A DNA stretch of 6,771 bases from an uncultured Eggerthellaceae bacterium (GTDB lineage: Bacteria > Actinomycetota > Coriobacteriia > Coriobacteriales > Eggerthellaceae). The notes under the pieces are model-generated. The model was given only the letters and a program-made list of their open reading frames with translations, ran no database searches and had not been told where the DNA came from. The DNA is taken from the NCBI GenBank assembly GCA_946618265.1, contig CAMOLA010000080.1:1-6771 (forward strand), in the 5' to 3' direction. Below are positions 1 through 5,474 of this stretch, one piece after another. Both the position numbers and the translations under genes were made by a program. Positions within the stretch are counted from its first letter, which is position 1; each line of letters begins with the position of its first letter.

Positions 1-11
1 GTCCGTTAAGA

Positions 12-56
12 GAATCTGGTACGAATTCAAGCACGATTCGTACCAGATTCGTACCA
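12..56. repeat. Perfect inverted repeat plus tandem GATTCGTACCA doublet
   Basis: The arms GAATCTGGTACGAAT (12-26) and ATTCGTACCAGATTC (36-50) are perfect reverse complements of 15 bp around a 9-nt centre. The right arm overlaps two head-to-tail copies of GATTCGTACCA (35-45 and 46-56), a direct repeat with an 11-bp period. The word ATTCGTACC reappears as a doublet at 5161-5181. The structure suits an operator for a dimeric DNA-binding protein. No gene is visible to its left within the window, so its target is unknown. A hairpin or terminator role is less likely because no T-run follows. Confidence 0.75.
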
Positions 57-150
57 ACCAACTCGCCGAGGCGAAAGGATGTCCTGACCTTAAGCCTTTG
101 GCCAGCGGATTTGCAGGCTCGATTTGAAAGCGGGTTTCTCATGCGTCTCT

Positions 151-306
151 TGAGTGGGAATAAACCGCTGGTTCTACGCTATCCTACACCATGCTACAGC
201 GTCGACATGTTTCCGCAGTTAGATAGCCCTTTTCATGCGACGACGTGCGACGATGTGCGACGGCGTAAACGGACCGAATCGCGTCTTTTCCTTACTTTTT
301 CCTTAC
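151..306 (+). repeat. 156-bp dispersed intergenic repeat, copy A
   Basis: This stretch aligns without any gap to 2858-3013, with 119 of 156 positions identical (hand count, about 76%). The best conserved blocks are GAGTGGGAATAAA (152-164), GACATGTTTCCGCAG (near 204-218), and GACGGCGTAAAC running into the 35-bp element at 272-306. Three tandem 10-bp words of the form TGCGACGNNG lie at 236-265. The 68-codon open frame across it is not conserved: the matching frame of copy B has a stop, and the substitutions show no synonymous bias. I therefore read it as a non-coding repeat and not as a gene. Confidence 0.8.
272..306 (+). repeat. 35-bp element, copy 1 (TTCCTTA doublet)
   Basis: The left half is GACCGAATCGCGTC. 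The right half holds TTCCTTA at 288-294 and again at 299-305, an 11-bp period with a T-rich 4-nt spacer. It ends 45 bp upstream of the TATAAT box that probably drives the toxin-antitoxin operon. Three further copies of exactly the same length lie at 2740, 2979 and 4906. The direct-repeat geometry resembles winged-helix response-regulator sites. Confidence 0.8.
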
Positions 307-331
307 GGCACCCTTGACCTCGAACCACTAT

Positions 332-357
332 ACGTACGTTGTTGCGTACGTTATAAT
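332..357 (+). promoter_or_regulatory. Promoter -10 box with adjoining palindrome, TA operon
   Basis: A consensus TATAAT lies at 352-357, 34 nt before the antitoxin ATG. Directly against it is the palindrome ACGTACG-TTGTTG-CGTACGT (332-338 and 345-351), which covers the -10 to -30 region. No good -35 hexamer is seen at 16-18 bp; a TTGACC at 314-319 is too far away. A palindrome on the core promoter fits the known autorepression of YefM/YoeB-type operons by the antitoxin and its complex. That role here is inferred. Confidence 0.55.
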
Positions 358-390
358 TTAGCTACCGAATCAAGATGAAAGGATCTCGAC

Positions 391-642
391 ATGACGAGCA
401 TTACGGCGACAGCGGCCCGAAAGGATATCTACAACCTCATCGCACGCGTCAACGAGGACTGCAAGCCCATTGCGATCACGAGTTCGAAGGGCAAGGGTGC
501 GGTGCTCGTCGGCGAGGACGACTGGGCCGCAATCGAGGAGACCCTCTACATCATGGGCGTCCCCGGCATGGCGGAGAAGCTCCTTGCAGGCCATGAAGAA
601 GACCTCGAAGATTGCGTGCCAGCCGATTCCCTCGAGTGGTAG
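391..642 (+). CDS. YefM/Phd-family antitoxin
   Basis: This 83-residue protein matches the YefM branch of the Phd/YefM antitoxin family. The N-terminal DNA-binding half starts MTSITATAARKDIYNLI and continues with VNEDCKPIAITSSKGKGAVLV. The family's EDDWAAIEETLYIM segment follows at about residues 42-55, and then a VPGM turn and an acidic tail (EEDLEDC) that would wrap the toxin. In this family the N-terminal half dimerises on an operator palindrome and the disordered C-terminus neutralises the toxin. The start is ATG 391 because AAAGGA (378-383) sits 7 nt before it. The toxin gene begins 5 nt after the stop, so the two are probably translationally coupled. The upstream palindrome at 332-351 is the likely autoregulatory site. 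Length is normal for the family. Confidence 0.9.
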   Translation: MTSITATAARKDIYNLIARVNEDCKPIAITSSKGKGAVLVGEDDWAAIEETLYIMGVPGMAEKLLAGHEEDLEDCVPADSLEW

Positions 643-647
643 CGGCC

Positions 648-941
648 ATGTACAGGATCGTTTTCACGAAGCAGGCGGCGAAAGACGCGAAGAAGTTGAA
701 GGCAGCGGGGCTCGACGCGAAGGCGAAGGGTCTCGTCGCAGTAGTCGCGAAGGACCCTTTCGCCTATCCACCTGCATTCGAGCCTCTGGTCGGCAGCCTT
801 GCGGGAATGTACTCGAGAAGAATCAACAGGCAGCACAGGTTCGTATACGAGGTGCTCGAGGAACCAATGGCAAGCGGTGATACGGAGTACGACGGCACCG
901 TCAAGGTGCTAAGCATGTGGACCCATTACGAAACCGTCTGA
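648..941 (+). CDS. Txe/YoeB-family toxin (ribosome-dependent mRNA interferase)
   Basis: This 97-residue protein is the partner of the antitoxin just upstream. Family members are RelE-fold ribonucleases that cleave mRNA in the ribosomal A site. By eye alignment to E. coli YoeB, the segment FEPLVGSLAGMYSRRINRQHR (residues 44-64) carries the counterparts of catalytic E46 (here E45) and R65 (here R64). The near-terminal HY supplies H93 and Y94, the counterparts of H83 and Y84. Compared with YoeB it has about 12 extra residues between VYEVLEE and VKVLSMW (about 71-85, acidic, Gly/Asp rich), and three residues (ETV) after the final Tyr. ATG 648 is chosen because it gives the family N-terminus MYRIVFTKQA; an in-frame ATG at 612 lies inside the antitoxin. 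All catalytic residues are present, so it is probably active. Confidence 0.88.
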   Translation: MYRIVFTKQAAKDAKKLKAAGLDAKAKGLVAVVAKDPFAYPPAFEPLVGSLAGMYSRRINRQHRFVYEVLEEPMASGDTEYDGTVKVLSMWTHYETV

Positions 942-973
942 GCACAACGAATCGTACCCCGACCTCTTTGAAC

Positions 974-2645
974 TCACAGCCACGCATACCCCGACTTAGC
1001 AACAAGCTCCTGGCCCTGCTCACCGCGAATCCAGTCAATCAAACGTACGAGGTTGGCCTGCCTGGTATCGGCACTCGGGTCGTCTTCGATTCGCGCGCGG
1101 CCCTCTTCCAAATCGCCCTTGCGCGTGACAGCGTAGAACTCGCCCGTAATCGGATAGCTTCCATCCGTGATGTTCTCGGGCGTCGGGGGCACCCCCTCAA
1201 TCTCGAGCAACTTCACGTCGTATTCGCCCACCAGGTCGGTCACATAGTACCTGAAGGAGTATCCTATCGCGCCCACACCGTTGTCGTAGTTGGCCACGGC
1301 CCTCACGAGCCCGCCCATAGACGCGCTGTAAAGCTCGCTGGGGGCTTCCATGAGCGGGGTATCTCCCATGAAGCGCACCATCATCGACTGGGATCCGGAG
1401 TTCTGGTTGCGCTGGTATGCGCGAATCGGCTCGTCGTTGCCGCCGACCTCGCGCCAGTTCGTTATCTCGCCGGCGTAGATCGCCTTCACCTGCTCGACGG
1501 AAAGCGAATCCACCGGATTGGAGGCGTTCACCAAAGAACACGAAGCCCTCGCGCCCGATGGGCGTGTAGTCGAACTCGACGCCCATCCCCCGCGCTTCCT
1601 GGGCCTGACCATCGTCGGCCTTCGTGCCGAAGAAGACGTCCGTATGACCCTCGGCAAGGACGGTGAAGCCTGCAGACGAGTTGTTGTACTGGAAGGTATC
1701 GCCATATTCGCCGAAGGCCTTGCCTGGATGCTCGATGTCGTATATGGGAATGCGCGTGTCGTCGAAGTAGTCATAATAGCCCTGGTTGTCGCCTTCCACC
1801 GAGTATGGTTGCACCCCCGCTGCGGCGGCCCGTGCTCCGTCGGCGCTTCCGCGATCGAAACCCAAGTCGAAACCTTCGCGACTCAGCCCCGTATAGCCTT
1901 TTGAATCCTGCATGATTTTCTGTACGCGCGTGTCTGAGGACTCGTTTTCCCCTACCGCCTGGAGCAGCGCGAGACGGAAGCCCGCCACATATCCATTTTC
2001 GGCAGCGTTGTTATAGTCCCATCTATCCCACTGGACGCTGGTCGCCTCCTCAGGATAGGTAGCCGTCACGAAAGCCGAAGCTAATGGTAGAAGCGCCGTG
2101 GCCGCATCGACACGAGGCAGGTTGTCCCCAGCGGAGAAACGCAGCGTGGCGGGCTCGTCGAGCCGCTCCACTCCTTCTCCTGTAAACGGGCGGTATTGGC
2201 CGTAACCTCCTTCGATGTTATTTGCGATGTTATTCTCGTCAAGCGCATCGGCTGCTTGCCTGTCGTAGGTTGCCGGGTCCACGAACTTGGCAGACGAATC
2301 CAACCAGTTAGCGGCGAAGAGCGCGAGCAAAGCAGCAAGGATGACTGCGCGCACTGCTGTCGCCTTGCGATTTTTGCCCACGACGAAGATGAGGGCGGTG
2401 ACGATGCCGAGGATTGCGGGCACGAGCAGGAAAACCGCGCTTCCCAAAAAGCCGTAGAAGAAGGTCGTCTCCCATGCGCCGAGCGCAACCATGAAGAATA
2501 TGATGGGCTGGGGCAGCCAGACGAGGACCGCGAGCACGATGCGTACAGCTAACGACGCCTCGCTCCGCCCGTTCGGTTGAACCGCGCGGTCATTTGCGGG
2601 CGGGAGCGGCATTGCGTCCGATTTGTCTTCTTCGTATACTTGCAT
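974..2645 (-). pseudogene. Membrane-anchored PstS-like phosphate-binding protein, frameshifted
   Basis: Reading from ATG 2645, a frame runs 371 codons to REGFVFF, then loses the family pattern and ends at 1197. A second frame continues with VNASNPVDSLSVEQVKAIY, then GEITNWREVGG and NSGSQSMM, and stops at 974. Removing one G of the GG at 1531-1532 (minus strand) joins them into about 556 residues. The N-terminus has no lipobox; three hydrophobic helices lie at about 33-56, 62-90 and 98-113, followed by a PstS-type periplasmic-binding fold. PstS-family proteins bind inorganic phosphate outside the cell for the Pst ABC transporter, but no pstCAB lies nearby, so the ligand is inferred. GAGGAGA (2651-2657) lies 5 nt before the ATG. 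The cause may be a real mutation or a sequencing error. The gene converges on the toxin gene, 32 bp apart. Confidence 0.85.
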
Positions 2646-2672
2646 CTTTATCTCCTCGGTTTTTGCAATGCA

Positions 2673-2678
2673 ATTATA
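2673..2678 (-). promoter_or_regulatory. -10 box for the PstS-like gene
   Basis: On the minus strand TATAAT reads at 2678-2673, 27 nt before the start codon at 2645. A convincing -35 hexamer is missing at 16-18 bp. A weak -35 would fit activation by a factor bound upstream, such as at the 35-bp element at 2740-2774. Confidence 0.5.
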
Positions 2679-2739
2679 CTTGGCTCGGGAATAGCCACGT
2701 TAATGAAAAGGGAGTCTCCGCTTTGGTGGCTCTCGGTGC

Positions 2740-2774
2740 GACCGAAGCGCGTCTTTTCCTTACTTTTTCCTTAC
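2740..2774 (+). repeat. 35-bp element, copy 2 (TTCCTTA doublet)
   Basis: The left half is GACCGAAGCGCGTC. The right half has TTCCTTA at 2756-2762 and 2767-2773. It differs from copy 1 only at the T/G position of the left half. It lies 61 bp upstream of the TATAAT of the PstS-like gene, which runs the other way. CGCTTTGGT (2720-2728) can pair with ACCGAAGCG (2741-2749), with one G-T pair, to make a hairpin into the left half. Confidence 0.8.
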
Positions 2775-2857
2775 TCTCGCTTTGCAAGTTGCTTTCGGCG
2801 TAAAACTCCAGCACTTTGACCTGCGCATTCATAATGACATGGAAACTATTGCACCCC

Positions 2858-3013
2858 TGAGTGGGAGTAAAACGTTGGTTCTACACCTTGCGACACCATA
2901 CTACTGCATGGACATGTTTCCGCAGGTAGATGGCTAATTATGTACGACAACGCGCTACGACTCACGACGGCGTAAACGGACCGAATCGCGTCCGTCACTG
3001 ATTTTTCACTGAC
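2858..3013 (+). repeat. 156-bp dispersed intergenic repeat, copy B
   Basis: This is the partner of 151-306 at a constant offset of 2707 with no insertion or deletion. Conserved blocks are GAGTGGGAGTAAA (2859-2871), GACATGTTTCCGCAG (2911-2925), and GACGGCGTAAACGGACCGAA running into the 35-bp element. TTTGACCTGCG at 2815-2825 precedes GAGTGGGA by 44 bp, an arrangement repeated at 4982 and 5025. An antisense open frame of 66 codons covers this copy but has no counterpart in copy A, so I do not call a gene. Confidence 0.8.
2979..3013 (+). repeat. 35-bp element, copy 3 (TCACTGA doublet)
   Basis: The left half is GACCGAATCGCGTC, identical to copy 1. The right half carries TCACTGA at 2995-3001 and 3006-3012 with a TTTT spacer. 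Compared with TTCCTTA in the same register, three positions differ, and they differ identically in both repeats. The arms 2943-2961 and 3026-3044 form an imperfect inverted repeat (16 of 19) that encloses this element. Confidence 0.8.
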
Positions 3014-3159
3014 GCCGCCTGCCGCGTTGTAGCGCGTCGTCGTCATGGAAGGCTGATCGAAAGAGCAGACTCGACGGTTGTCGCTAACGCGATGCTTTTA
3101 GCCGTTTTCATTCGGGTCGCTTTTCGTCGGTCGAGCCAGCTGGCAAGGCCTGCAGGACG
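3014..3159. other. Intergenic stretch without a recognised gene
   Basis: No open frame here has a ribosome-binding site or recognisable protein. It includes the right arm of the inverted repeat around copy 3 (3026-3044) and a 10-bp palindrome GCCAGCTGGC (3135-3144). I see no clear terminator for the minus-strand gene that ends at 3160. Confidence 0.5.
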
Positions 3160-3334
3160 TCAGCGCCTTCTCTCAATTATTCGCGCAAGGGCCATGCAAA
3201 AGCCAACAAATGAGACTACCAACGAAAACGCCCACTTAGCAGTCAAATGCCACTGAGACTGTATACCATGCGCAATACAGATGGCAAGAATGACCCCCCA
3301 GCAAGATGGCGCCTATCACGCACTCTTTGTTCAT
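3160..3334 (-). pseudogene. Small two-helix membrane protein, frameshifted at a G6 run
   Basis: From ATG 3334 the minus strand reads MNKECVIGAILLG and then falls out of frame at six consecutive G (plus-strand C at 3294-3299). With five G the frame continues as GVILAICIAHGIQSQWHLTA, then KWAFSLVVSFVGFC, MALARIIERRR and a TGA at 3160. This gives 57 residues. The product would have two hydrophobic helices (about residues 6-24 and 35-54), a short polar loop and a positive C-terminus, a coherent small membrane protein. AGGAAGG lies 8 nt before the ATG, and a divergent promoter is at 3432-3459. I do not recognise the family. Alternatives are a relic, a contingency tract, a sequencing error, or chance hydrophobicity on a non-coding strand. 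Confidence 0.5.
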
Positions 3335-3431
3335 CGTTCGTACCTTCCTGGAATCTGCACGTGCGCCCTTCCACGGTCTTCGAGGTTGGAGGGCGTGAAC
3401 TCGCTTGGGGCGGGAACTTGAAGCTATTCGG

Positions 3432-3459
3432 ATTGTACTGGAATGCTCATTATTGTCAG
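3432..3459 (-). promoter_or_regulatory. Divergent minus-strand promoter
   Basis: Read on the minus strand, CTGACA (3459-3454) and TACAAT (3437-3432) are separated by 16 bp. Transcription would start near 3425 and reach the small membrane gene after a leader of about 90 nt. Its -35 box overlaps the plus-strand -35 box (TTGTCA, 3453-3458), so both promoters would share control by the adjacent palindrome. Confidence 0.5.
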
Positions 3460-3481
3460 TATCACGTTATCGTGATACAAT
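3453..3481 (+). promoter_or_regulatory. Promoter with embedded operator palindrome, DUF4160/DUF2442 operon
   Basis: TTGTCA (3453-3458) and TACAAT (3476-3481) are separated by exactly 17 bp. The perfect palindrome GTATCACG-TTAT-CGTGATAC occupies 3459-3478, filling the whole spacer and overlapping the -10 box. A repressor bound there would shut the promoter. The second gene of the operon carries a helix-turn-helix, so it is the natural candidate for autoregulation. Transcription would start near 3488, giving a leader of about 23 nt. Confidence 0.8.
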
Positions 3482-3510
3482 CTTCAAGCCACAGAAGAAA
3501 GGGGTCAGAG

Positions 3511-3765
3511 GTGCCGACACTTGCGAGGTTCTACGGTATCGTCATGCGGATGTATTTCCTGGGCTCCGAGCACAACCCGCCGCACGTGCACGCGATATAC
3601 GGCGAGGACACGGCCGCGTTCGACATAAGGACCGGCGAGATGATCGAGGGAGGCATGCCCAACCGGGCCGCCGGGATGATACGCGAGTGGATTTCGATGA
3701 ACAGGGACGACCTGCTGGAGATGTGGGAGACGCAGGAGTTCAGAAAACTCGACCCGCTCGACTAG
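3511..3765 (+). CDS. DUF4160 domain protein
   Basis: This 84-residue protein is made up of the DUF4160 domain. It starts MPTLARFYGIVMRMYF, followed by the family hallmark EHNPPHVHAIYGE (about residues 20-32), then FDIRTGEMIEGGMPNR, and MIREWISMNRDDLLEMWE near the end. The function of the family is not established. It is regularly found next to DUF2442 proteins, as here, and such pairs look like toxin-antitoxin modules. The start is GTG 3511: GAAAGGGG (3497-3504) is 6 nt before it and the family N-terminus begins there. An in-frame ATG at 3247 would add 88 unrelated residues and place the promoter inside the gene, so I rejected it. It is co-transcribed with the next gene, 14 bp away. Confidence 0.88.
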   Translation: MPTLARFYGIVMRMYFLGSEHNPPHVHAIYGEDTAAFDIRTGEMIEGGMPNRAAGMIREWISMNRDDLLEMWETQEFRKLDPLD

Positions 3766-3779
3766 CAAGGAGGCGCAAG

Positions 3780-4217
3780 ATGCTGTTCCACAAGGTCAAG
3801 GACGTTTCCGCCCTACCAGGCATGAGGCTGAGCGTGCAGTTCGCGAACGGCACCACGAAGCTCTACGACGTCGCGCCCCTGACGGCGCGCTTCCCGGTCT
3901 TCGCGCAACTTGCGGACGAAGCCCTCTTCAGCTCCGTGGAAGTCGACCAGGGAGGCTACGGGATCATCTGGAACGACGACATCGACCTCTCCTGCGACGA
4001 GCTCTGGGAAAACGGCACAGAGGTGTCCACGCCTTTCGACGGCCTCATGTCGTTCTCCGACGCGAGCGAGCTATGGGGATTGAGCGAGTCGACGCTTCGC
4101 AAGGCCGTGTCGTACGGCAAGATTGTCCCAGGCGTCGATGCGCGCAAGTACGGCAAGCAGTGGGTCGTGACGCGAGAAGCTATGGGCAGAGAGTACGGCG
4201 AGCCGGCGTCAGCATGA
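3780..4217 (+). CDS. DUF2442 protein with C-terminal helix-turn-helix
   Basis: Residues 1-80 of this 145-residue protein form the DUF2442 domain: MLFHKVKDVSALPG, then LSVQFANGTTKLYDVAPL, and GGYGIIWNDDIDLSCDELWENG. Residues about 90-140 form a second domain, SFSDASELWGLSESTLRKAV followed by YGKIVPGVDARKYGKQWVV and TREAMGREYG, which reads like an excisionase/MerR-type helix-turn-helix with a wing. AAGGAGG (3767-3773) is 6 nt before ATG 3780. The protein probably binds the palindrome in its own promoter (3459-3478) and acts as the regulator or antitoxin side of the DUF4160 pair. That assignment is inference; DUF2442 itself has no proven activity that I can cite. The stop codon lies in the loop-proximal part of a hairpin at 4204-4222. 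Confidence 0.85.
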   Translation: MLFHKVKDVSALPGMRLSVQFANGTTKLYDVAPLTARFPVFAQLADEALFSSVEVDQGGYGIIWNDDIDLSCDELWENGTEVSTPFDGLMSFSDASELWGLSESTLRKAVSYGKIVPGVDARKYGKQWVVTREAMGREYGEPASA

Positions 4218-4239
4218 CGCCGCCCTACCGAAGGGCAGC
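4204..4239 (+). terminator. Two small hairpins at the end of the DUF2442 gene
   Basis: CGGCGTCA (4204-4211) and TGACGCCG (4215-4222) form an 8-bp stem with a 3-nt loop that includes the stop codon. Right after it, GCCCT and AGGGC (about 4225-4239) form a 5-bp stem. The sequence that follows has only scattered T, so an intrinsic terminator is possible but weak. Confidence 0.35.
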
Positions 4240-4355
4240 CGTTCTCGATTCTTCAGTTGCGACGTCTTGCAATGCTGCCTGGTGCCGAGAGACAAGCCAA
4301 GACCAGTTACAAATCGCCTGTAGCAACACGGTGGAGGCTTTGAGCCACGCACGGG

Positions 4356-4378
4356 TATACTATCCCGACTTAGGATAG
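4356..4378 (+). promoter_or_regulatory. Possible -10 box and operator before the membrane protein gene
   Basis: TATACT at 4356-4361 could be a -10 box; no matching -35 is seen. It runs into an inverted repeat CTATCC-N7-GGATAG (4360-4365 and 4373-4378) about 36 nt before ATG 4414. The evidence is position and symmetry only. Confidence 0.3.
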
Positions 4379-4413
4379 ATTTTGACTAAAAGACAGAGGG
4401 ATATGCTCTAACG

Positions 4414-4875
4414 ATGGATGCAATCGACTGGGATTCAGATGACGAGGCCTTGATGGAAGAAGCCAGGGCGCAGGGGTGCAGGACGGTAACCCTGACCTTG
4501 GCGGTCATCACAGCAGCAGCCGTCTGCGCGATGGCTGTATGCCTCTTCTCTCTTGCCAGCTGCAAATCCGACTGGGAGGACTACTATGCTCGCCAGAGGG
4601 ATGCTGCGGCGTCTTCGGCCTGCGCCTACTGCGAAGGGGGCCTCGGCGCTGCTGGCGCACGGGCAACATCCGTCACGGCTCGCGACTTGCCGGAATGGCG
4701 CGAGTTCACCTTCAGACCCGCGACGCGATTCGACGTTACGGTGGAGACGGCTGCGGGAACGTACCGAGTGCTTGTGACCGAGGCGCTACCAGAAAACTGG
4801 GAAGAAGGAGACTTTCCCCGACCGCCAGAAGAGATATCGACACCTGCAGTGGAGTCCGCGGATATGGTTAGGTAA
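4414..4875 (+). CDS. Unrecognised single-pass membrane protein
   Basis: I do not recognise this 153-residue protein. It begins with a strongly acidic stretch (MDAIDWDSDDEALMEEAR, residues 1-18), then has one hydrophobic helix at about 24-49 (VTLTLAVITAAAVCAMAVCL and onward). An Asp/Tyr/Arg-rich segment with a CAYC motif (70-73) follows. Residues 95-125 (WREFTFRPATRFDVTVETAA, then TYRVLVTEALPENW) look like a small beta-rich domain, and the tail is Pro/Glu-rich. The likely topology is N-terminus inside and domain outside, because Arg precedes the helix and the helix is not followed by a positive cluster. A Cys at 50 ends the helix, but the acidic N-terminus does not resemble a lipoprotein signal. 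GAGGG (4396-4400) is 13 nt before the ATG, which is long, so the exact start is uncertain. Copy 4 of the 35-bp element begins 30 bp after the stop. Confidence 0.65.
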   Translation: MDAIDWDSDDEALMEEARAQGCRTVTLTLAVITAAAVCAMAVCLFSLASCKSDWEDYYARQRDAAASSACAYCEGGLGAAGARATSVTARDLPEWREFTFRPATRFDVTVETAAGTYRVLVTEALPENWEEGDFPRPPEEISTPAVESADMVR

Positions 4876-4905
4876 AGCGAGGAGCTTTCGAAACGTCCAT
4901 GGTTT

Positions 4906-4940
4906 GACCGAAGCGCGTCTTTCACTGAGTTTTCACTGAC
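4906..4940 (+). repeat. 35-bp element, copy 4 (TCACTGA doublet)
   Basis: The left half is GACCGAAGCGCGTC, identical to copy 2. The right half holds TCACTGA at 4922-4928 and 4933-4939 with a GTTT spacer. GCTTTCG (4884-4890) and CGAAAGC (4961-4967) form a 7-bp inverted repeat around it. It is the only copy lying just downstream of a gene on the same strand. Confidence 0.8.
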
Positions 4941-4981
4941 TTCTACGCGTTCTGCACTTACGAAAGCCAATCAATAGTGTT

Positions 4982-5062
4982 TTTGACCTGCGTTTTGTTT
5001 ACGCATGGCTGTTATTGTGCGTACGAGTGGGAATAGAATTCTCAAGAAAACACTTTTCCGCA
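4982..5062 (+). repeat. Partial copy of the dispersed repeat (copy C)
   Basis: TTTGACCTGCG (4982-4992) is followed 43 bp later by GAGTGGGAATAG (5025-5036), matching the same pair at 2815 and 2859. CTTTTCCGCA (about 5053-5062) resembles the TGTTTCCGCA block of copies A and B but sits about 25 bp closer. The downstream part with a 35-bp element is absent; a hairpin and the GTACC doublet are found there instead. Confidence 0.5.
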
Positions 5063-5096
5063 CTCCGCCCCGAAACACAACATAACCGCAGATCAG

Positions 5097-5129
5097 AAGT
5101 GGTGCGTTCGAGAAATCGGCGCACCACTT
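5097..5129 (+). repeat. Perfect 10-bp hairpin
   Basis: AAGTGGTGCG (5097-5106) and CGCACCACTT (5120-5129) form a perfect stem around a 13-nt loop. A second, weaker stem follows (CGAAAG 5135-5140 with CTTTCG 5150-5155). The T-run after the first stem is short (CTTTGCTTC), so it could end transcripts from the gene at 4414 or act in the leader of the gene at 5232. The sequence does not decide. Confidence 0.55.
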
Positions 5130-5160
5130 TGCTTCGAAAGAAAGCACTCCTTTCGGGATT

Positions 5161-5181
5161 ATTCGTACCGGAATTCGTACC
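5161..5181. repeat. ATTCGTACC direct repeat
   Basis: ATTCGTACC occurs at 5161-5169 and 5173-5181, a 12-bp period, about 50 bp before the start of the small gene at 5232. The same word forms the doublet at 35-56 with an 11-bp period. The position is right for a regulator binding near the -35 region of that gene, whose own promoter hexamers are not clear. Confidence 0.6.
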
Positions 5182-5231
5182 ACCCCAGCGCCACCATTCA
5201 CGATGCTAGGTACTGAGAGGAGATTAGAAAG

Positions 5232-5474
5232 ATGATCAACGAAGCGAAGATGACCGAACTCAACCAGGCCGAGGACATGGCCTGCTTCCGGGCGGACACG
5301 AGCAAGGCGGTGCTCGACGCCATGCGCAACGACTTCGAGCAGCTTCCGCCGGATGCTCGCGCCAAGCTTTTGGACATGCTCTGCGCCTCTGGCGTCGAGA
5401 GTCCCCAGTGGTGGTGGGATGTCCTCGTGGGCGAAGGTGACCCGCTCTACCGGGAGTTCGAGCCGCTGCTGTAG
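5232..5474 (+). CDS. Small acidic protein of unknown function
   Basis: This 80-residue protein is one I do not recognise. It starts MINEAKMTELNQAEDMACFR and is mostly helical and acidic up to about residue 52 (FEQLPPDARAKLLDMLC). A tryptophan-rich segment SPQWWWDVLVGEGDPLYREF follows, and then LEPLL-like ending FEPLL. There is no signal peptide or membrane helix, so it is probably cytosolic. GAGAGGAG (5215-5222) lies 9 nt before ATG 5232; a second in-frame ATG at 5250 lacks such a site. Codon third positions are mostly G or C, which supports real coding. It stands alone, preceded by a long leader with a hairpin and the GTACC doublet, and is followed by the hairpin at 5499-5527. Confidence 0.7.
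   Translation: MINEAKMTELNQAEDMACFRADTSKAVLDAMRNDFEQLPPDARAKLLDMLCASGVESPQWWWDVLVGEGDPLYREFEPLL

Follow-up and report, generated by a model that had tools for sequence, protein, structure and literature searches.

The DNA analysed here, a stretch of 6,771 nucleotides from an uncultured Eggerthellaceae bacterium (contig CAMOLA010000080.1; the whole stretch is referred to as the window), contains four 35-bp elements in which a left part of 14 bp precedes a 7-bp word repeated directly with an 11-bp period. Its sequence suggests that the window is probably a tandem array of integrative elements, in which the paired repeats are predicted arm-type sites of tyrosine integrases. From left to right, it comprises the right arm of one element (1-151), a core, cassette 1 (152-2859, Phd/YoeB), a second core, cassette 2 (2859-5025, with a DhiT-like pair), a third core and the left arm of another element.

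All four 35-bp elements lie on the plus strand. Copies 1 (272-306) and 2 (2740-2774) contain the TTCCTTA pair, preceded by GACCGAATCGCGTC and GACCGAAGCGCGTC, respectively, and belong to the left and right arms of cassette 1; copies 3 (2979-3013) and 4 (4906-4940) contain the TCACTGA pair, again with GACCGAATCGCGTC and GACCGAAGCGCGTC, in the left and right arms of cassette 2. The two copies of either word are thus the two ends of one cassette. An earlier note on this DNA had reported these positions, the 11-bp direct repeat and the two words with identical changes in both halves, all of which was borne out by a direct check. It had also stated that a T/G base in the left part is unlinked to the word. 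Within the window this is correct, because the word goes with the cassette and the T/G base with the end (T left, G right). Outside the window the latter rule is a tendency only: among 18 copies, the window's included, T is found in eight of 11 left arms and G in three, the other seven having G (four), T (two) or A (one). The exact 14-mer GACCGAAKCGCGTC occurs four times in the window (seven matches at up to three mismatches, against 2.8 expected from shuffles). What the note had missed is that copies 1 and 3 close a left module of roughly 120 bp that is conserved and belongs to a 162-bp repeat, and that copies 2 and 4 open a right module with TTTGACCTGCG, after which comes the core.

The core, GAGTGGGA(A/G)T, lies outside both modules and borders both cassettes. 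Core 1 (GAGTGGGAATAA, 152-163) forms the junction between the upstream element and cassette 1, core 2 (GAGTGGGAGTAA, 2859-2870) that between the two cassettes, and core 3 (GAGTGGGAATAG, 5025-5036) that between cassette 2 and the next element, all on the plus strand. Core 1 matches the 3' end of guaA in a relative (genome G137, locus L040). In that genome, a 550-aa open reading frame (ORF) scores as GMP synthase (NF000848, 736 bits; PF00958) with the C-terminus ..TIEWE*; its final codons and stop read GAGTGGGAATAA, and the left module and 35-bp element follow directly 3'. According to PMC9376610, GAGTGGGA serves GIsul2, which has attL, attLR and attR, as its integration core in guaA; Tn5801 is likewise described as inserting at the guaA 3' end (PMC4844618). 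In the family set used for detailed comparison (138 genomes, one species each), ATHGARTGGGARTRR is present in 111, a count that includes the genome's own guaA end; among the matches listed, some genomes have several on the same strand a few kilobases apart. In the GACCGAA family, to which the 35-bp element belongs, left arms were also seen with a core position other than GAGTGGGA (e.g. GGGTTTATG), at L041 6121-6261 (minus strand), L049 2110-2250, L046 7042-7150 (minus strand) and L045 5830-5970; perhaps these are relatives using other target sites.

The spacing of the copies is fixed relative to the guaA-type core, not to start codons. Copy 1 lies 84 bp upstream of the antitoxin gene, copy 2 lies 94 bp before a minus-strand gene, copy 3 is 497 bp before the next gene and copy 4 is 30 bp past a stop codon; orientation is identical in all four, irrespective of gene direction. 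The earlier note had taken the elements for promoter operators of an OmpR/PhoB-type regulator, a role with which the 7+4+7 layout, the joint change of the halves and the place of copy 1 before an antitoxin start agree. However, distances to genes vary over the range just given, orientation follows the core rather than the genes, and copies are few; the promoter placement and set distance to gene starts that characterize a Pho box or OmpR operator were not found. The operator role was rejected on positions and orientation, and we consider it very improbable. A pattern search in relatives, which that note had proposed as a check, detected the 35-bp element at up to two mismatches in six of the 138 family genomes, one match each; the pattern misses the second copy of G001, which has a 1-bp insertion, and further copies in G002 and G137. 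The left module (E ≤0.001) was found in eight of these genomes and the exact right-module pattern in two. A scan of 84,980 species returned three loci matching the element, in an Eggerthellaceae member from roe-deer jejunum, a Denitrobacterium from rumen and a Coriobacteriaceae member (RUG11223). Other TTCCTTA pairs were sought as well, giving 10 places in nine genomes, five of them known copies and five that look like chance matches. An origin from plasmids or phages was rejected, as the plasmid collection searched held no near match and three patterns gave 0, 0 and 1 match in viral contigs (the annotated phage collection was not searched), the single match being without a second repeat and read as chance. 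Rfam at gathering scores yielded no match, and an RNA-element reading was rejected.

Between word classes, the two half-sites change in step. Of 15 GACCGAA elements compared, eight have identical halves, and half-site mismatches number 12 against 28.6 expected by permutation (one of 20000 permutations was as low); not counted in this set are three copies, both of those from G001, which are orthologous to copies in the window, and the left one from G137, which has lost its second half. The elements in G114 and G118 have common cargo (82.5% identity over 705 bp), but their word classes are different, and this in both halves. Another scaffold, which is homologous to the left arm at window position 5025, shows ATTCGTACC, ATTTGTAGC/ATATGTAGC and ATTTGTCCA pairs in arms that are alike elsewhere. 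Among 12 core-linked copies of the form ATTYGT+NNN, which include both arms of some elements, 11 have the same NNN in both halves. Two coreless pattern matches (GGC/CCC and ACC/GCC) stand outside this count, and a permutation on the ATTYGT scaffold was made with 10 hand-picked copies, leaving out L065 and L120, which are in step too. Half-sites thus look jointly constrained, as they might be by a protein binding paired sites about one helix turn apart. Of the earlier note's proposal, what stands is a paired-site protein using different words on a shared scaffold, since the halves look jointly constrained and the pattern recurs in the ATTYGT family; its function as an operator does not.

The geometry of the window arms is found around other cores. 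Of 67 cores, 10 have CAGGT(A/C) at +51 to +55 and seven have TGACCTG at -31 to -53, the window's included in both counts; one arm listing had been pre-selected for a motif near +52, and the position was tested on these 67 cores instead. CAGGTCA/TGACCTG has a density of 1.07 per kb in arms against 0.23 per kb overall (4.6-fold). In left arms of the ATTYGT family, the repeat pair starts 134-136 bp past the start of the core; in right arms it starts 97-117 bp ahead of it. Perfect 9-mer repeats with a period of 9-13 were found in 34 of 237 arms, against two of 1185 letter shuffles; this set, like the 45-element and 29-integrase sets below, includes related sequences, so that rows are not independent, and the shuffles keep base composition only. 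Core-flanking arms therefore contain short direct repeats at set distances, as expected of arm-type sites. CAGGTCA was also seen at -48 or -49 in six cores, a differently oriented arm layout.

Agreement between the two ends of an element was measured in two ways. Among 45 elements (core pairs less than 600 bp apart were left out), nine carry repeats scoring 7/8 or better in each arm, and in five of these nine the word is shared, against three of 72 mismatched pairs; the five include G001, orthologue of window cassette 1. When 8-mers common to left and right arm were counted, window cassette 1 gave 29, window cassette 2 seven, cassette 1 of G001 28 and a G052 element 10, each element's own arm ranking first among 37 right arms, with ties possible. 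Two rows of this 37-element comparison, G035b (382 bp) and G039 (144 bp), are artefacts of overlapping arm windows; they inflate its permutation result, which was not used. Other guaA-core elements (L081, L083, L084, L085, L089, L139 and L143) differ in their right-arm words, which are GTGACCC, GGTACTGCG, GAGTTCCAA and TGGCTACCA.

Repeats of period 11 are also found beside integrase genes. Through an arm-binding domain, many mobile-element integrases recognise accessory sites close to the crossover, as described in PMC8138268. G025 encodes an integrase of 397 aa (PF00589 and PF14657) whose gene stops immediately ahead of a right arm carrying a TTGTGGCAG pair and a core. The best family matches to this protein were collected, and 29 genes, those with enough sequence among the best 30 loci of a longer list, were inspected: 10 have a perfect 8-mer repeat no more than 130 nt past the stop, all with period 11 and with ten different words, against 0.3% of letter shuffles. 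The PF14657 arm domain was present in five of seven integrases scanned. In the G052 element, which measures about 2.9 kb core to core and whose arms are homologous to the two outer arms of the window, the word ATTCGTACC forms a pair of 11-12-bp period in both arms and a 230-aa frame carries the PF00589 catalytic domain. For related integrases with a tRNA gene downstream (L157 Val, L162 Phe, L164 Phe, L170 Val, L173 Asp), repeats matching at 7/8 or 8/8 with a period of 10-11 were likewise seen past the integrase stop, indicating that the arm-word layout reaches beyond guaA elements.

The word pair could instead be bound by a recombination directionality factor (RDF, or excisionase) and not by the integrase, in which case the element would still be an att arm. 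We regard this as unlikely, because five elements have the same word in both arms, whereas an RDF in known systems usually acts on one arm, and because repeat pairs with ever-changing words stand directly after related integrase genes. In its favour, RDF sites are described in PMC7498355 as direct repeats one helix turn apart, and the 14-mer, nearly invariant across 11 left arms, leaves room for two different proteins on the element.

Comparison with relatives placed breakpoints at this 14-mer. The left arm of G001 is 97% identical to that of window copy 3 over 135 bp, homology ending at the last base of the 14-mer; the G001 cargo is that of cassette 1. In G002:C16:188, the match to window copy 4 covers its upstream side (89% identity, 204 bp) and extends 3 bp beyond the 14-mer. 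Downstream sides are unrelated in both comparisons. Homology ending at or just past the 14-mer in both genomes indicates that recombination joined arms and cargo at the element. We thus considered that the 35-bp element might itself be a cassette exchange site, recombination at GACCGAAKCGCGTC swapping word and cargo behind a constant left arm; the presence in G002:C16 of two 35-bp elements ahead of one right arm would fit. However, the 14-mer sits within a long identical run between left arms, and for this reason ordinary recombination between tandem arms, which would tend to break there too, suffices to explain the breakpoints. Moreover, G114 and G118 have the same left arm as well as the same cargo in spite of their different words, and no recombinase linked to the 14-mer was found. 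A dedicated exchange site is, in our view, unlikely.

Altogether, these data led us to propose an array of integrase-dependent units, situated at the guaA 3' end or at a copy of that site, in which two small cassettes, both complete, would be flanked by the ends of two elements of a different type. Each of the two would be delimited by the crossover core GAGTGGGA and possess two arms, with an inner motif (CGCAGGT-like on the left, TGACCTGCG on the right) and an outer 35-bp element per arm. The pair of 7-bp words would be the arm-type site for the N-terminal arm-binding domain of a tyrosine integrase, two protomers being placed one helix turn apart. Because one integrase has to fit both arms of a cassette, the word would be common to both repeats and both cassette ends and would differ from cassette to cassette. 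We infer that an integrase binds the words and that the cassettes move, and that the enzyme acts in trans, since neither cassette encodes one.

Several observations weigh against this proposal. The parallel change of halves claimed by the earlier note holds between word classes; inside the CTGA class (nine copies) the halves drift independently, with 11 mismatches against 12.1 expected (7470 of 20000 permutations were as low), so that independent drift, which that note had named as refuting its idea, is seen in part. A word present in both arms is not general, many other elements having the repeat pair in the right arm only. General 8-mer sharing between own left and right arms was not found for most of the 37 elements: in 22 (59%) the two arms of the element have one or more 8-mers in common, against 54% of mismatched pairs. 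The window stops short of guaA, the guaA 3'-end location having been seen for the same arm family in G137. In one genome a GACCGAA left arm with a guaA-type core (G103:C1:335252; L042 4253) lies off the main core array at ~2.10-2.15 Mb, possibly as a secondary insertion. No tyrosine integrase was found in the window cassettes, and none with GACCGAA-type arms in the stretches fetched around such arms; PF00589 genes number three in G137, two in G002 and one in G003, and five of these six are high-scoring and were read as Xer-like. The G052 integrase frame has the catalytic domain only, the arm domain being absent, and that element may be broken. Finally, divergence of the arm domain does not clearly follow the word in one GGC/ACC pair, the single full pair, in which identity is 67% for the arm domain and 76% for the catalytic domain, and a hypervariable arm domain was not seen.

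More tentatively, and with more doubt than confidence, we suggest that the arm word might serve as an address code that keeps stacked guaA-core integrase elements apart. Many integrases would have the guaA core in common, which would stack their elements in one array. An address would consist of a constant frame (ATTYGT or CT.A) together with a few variable bases, and an element would have it up to four times. A new address would arise by joint replacement, both repeats of both arms being changed together on a shared scaffold, partly via exchange at the 14-mer, and integrase-less toxin-antitoxin cassettes would travel with a borrowed one.

As to the remaining features of the window, the outer arms both carry the ATTCGTACC pair. 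In the right arm of the upstream element (1-151, plus strand) the pair occupies 36-44 and 47-55 with an 11-bp period and begins 116 bp ahead of the core; this arm is 77.7% identical to the G052 right arm over 148 bp. In the left arm of the further element (5037-5190, plus strand) it occupies 5161-5169 and 5173-5181 with a 12-bp period and begins 136 bp after the core start, and identity to four other guaA-core left arms is 78.6-85.6%. An 80-aa ORF (5232-5474, plus strand) without a Pfam match lies just within the left arm of the next element, and the G052 element (L102) has a similar ORF start at the matching place.

Cassette 1 begins with a left arm (164-306, plus strand) in which a CAGTTAG inner motif at +52 precedes the 35-bp element. 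It continues with a Phd/YefM antitoxin gene (391-642, plus strand; PF02604, E 6.5e-17), a YoeB-like toxin gene (648-941, plus strand; PF06769, E 1.7e-9) and a PBP-like substrate-binding gene (974-2645, minus strand). The frame of the latter is broken into overlapping frames at 1197-2645 and 974-1774, PF12849 matching on the 974-1774 frame only, which could reflect decay or an assembly error; in the G001 copy (L047 4275-5996) the frame is open. The right-arm inner motif TTTGACCTGCG follows at 2815-2825 (plus strand), its TGACCTG lying 42 bp ahead of the core. G001 has a counterpart of cassette 1 (identity of 93.5% over 722 bp around copy 1 and of 94.2% over 729 bp around copy 2), with different flanks beyond both cores.

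The left arm of cassette 2 (2871-3013, plus strand) has CAGGTAG at +52, and its 35-bp element lies inside an inverted repeat (2944-2961/3026-3043). A DUF4160/DhiT-toxin-like gene (3511-3765, plus strand; start codon assigned by choice) matches PF13711 (E 2.1e-21) and scores 85.5 bits against NF048015, below the cut-off of 100. A DUF2442 gene with a helix-turn-helix domain (3780-4217, plus strand; PF10387, PF20038) is likely its partner. A 153-aa ORF (4414-4875, plus strand), whose 3' end is common to G002:C16, ends 30 bp before copy 4, and the inner motif TTTGACCTGCG at 4982-4992 (plus strand) stands ahead of core 3. Ten ORFs of the window were scanned with Pfam: no integrase or transfer family was found, and no remnant of decayed genes of integrative and conjugative or mobilizable elements (ICE/IME) was recognised, while attL and attR are retained, as in a cis-mobilizable element (CIME).

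Toxin-antitoxin cargo in tandem units bounded by direct repeats also recalls integron gene cassettes, with the 35-bp element as attC, all the more as a long palindrome surrounds copy 3. The region of this copy folds as single-stranded DNA at -28 kcal/mol (z -2.9), but folding beats shuffles in this copy only (z +1.1, -0.5 and -0.7 for the other three), the shared junction is the guaA core, and the cassettes hold two or three genes, on either strand. With such weak evidence (no search was made for IntI or for attC boxes), the attC reading was rejected as extremely improbable.

If the paired repeats are integrase arm sites, an apparent operator family becomes a set of readable att sites, and sequence alone is enough to propose where integrative cassettes end, which arms they have and which specificity words they use, in an actinobacterial family with cores in most of its genomes. 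The words would offer a testable route to how many integrases share one target and yet leave each other's cargo in place, and also bear on who moves integrase-less toxin-antitoxin cassettes. Among the papers listed for Eggerthella with guaA, none was on this subject, as judged by titles and the beginnings of abstracts.

Among known systems, the closest parallel is the GIsul2/CR2-sul2 unit, as presented in PMC9376610: the core GAGTGGGA, the guaA target and the tandem core-sharing units match the window array, and the CR2-sul2 unit is mobilised by the GIsul2 integrase. That system differs in host bacteria, arms and cargo, and mobility was demonstrated for GIsul2, whereas the window cassettes are known from sequence alone. 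Tn5801-type elements, according to PMC4844618, are alike in the guaA 3' end and a short direct-repeat core (11-bp); they differ as 25-kb conjugative elements, and the comparison here covers the target and the core repeat. For the attP of Oenococcus oeni prophages, PMC8074189 proposes short direct arm repeats as sites for the integrase N-terminus, different repeat sets going with different integrase N-termini. These are phages, however, with 10-bp repeats in two and four copies on two arms, and the account given there is without guaA or tandem cassettes. The CIME and accretion model of PMC5704250 shares elements that lack integration and transfer genes, keep attL and attR and are stacked at one target; unlike a CIME with recognisable ICE remnants, the window cassettes carry small toxin-antitoxin cargo. 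In conclusion, core, target, stacking and integrase-less riders are already known from the accounts in PMC9376610 and PMC5704250, and swapped arm repeats have a precedent in the Oenococcus prophages; to these the window adds an exceptionally clear case of arm words that change in concert.

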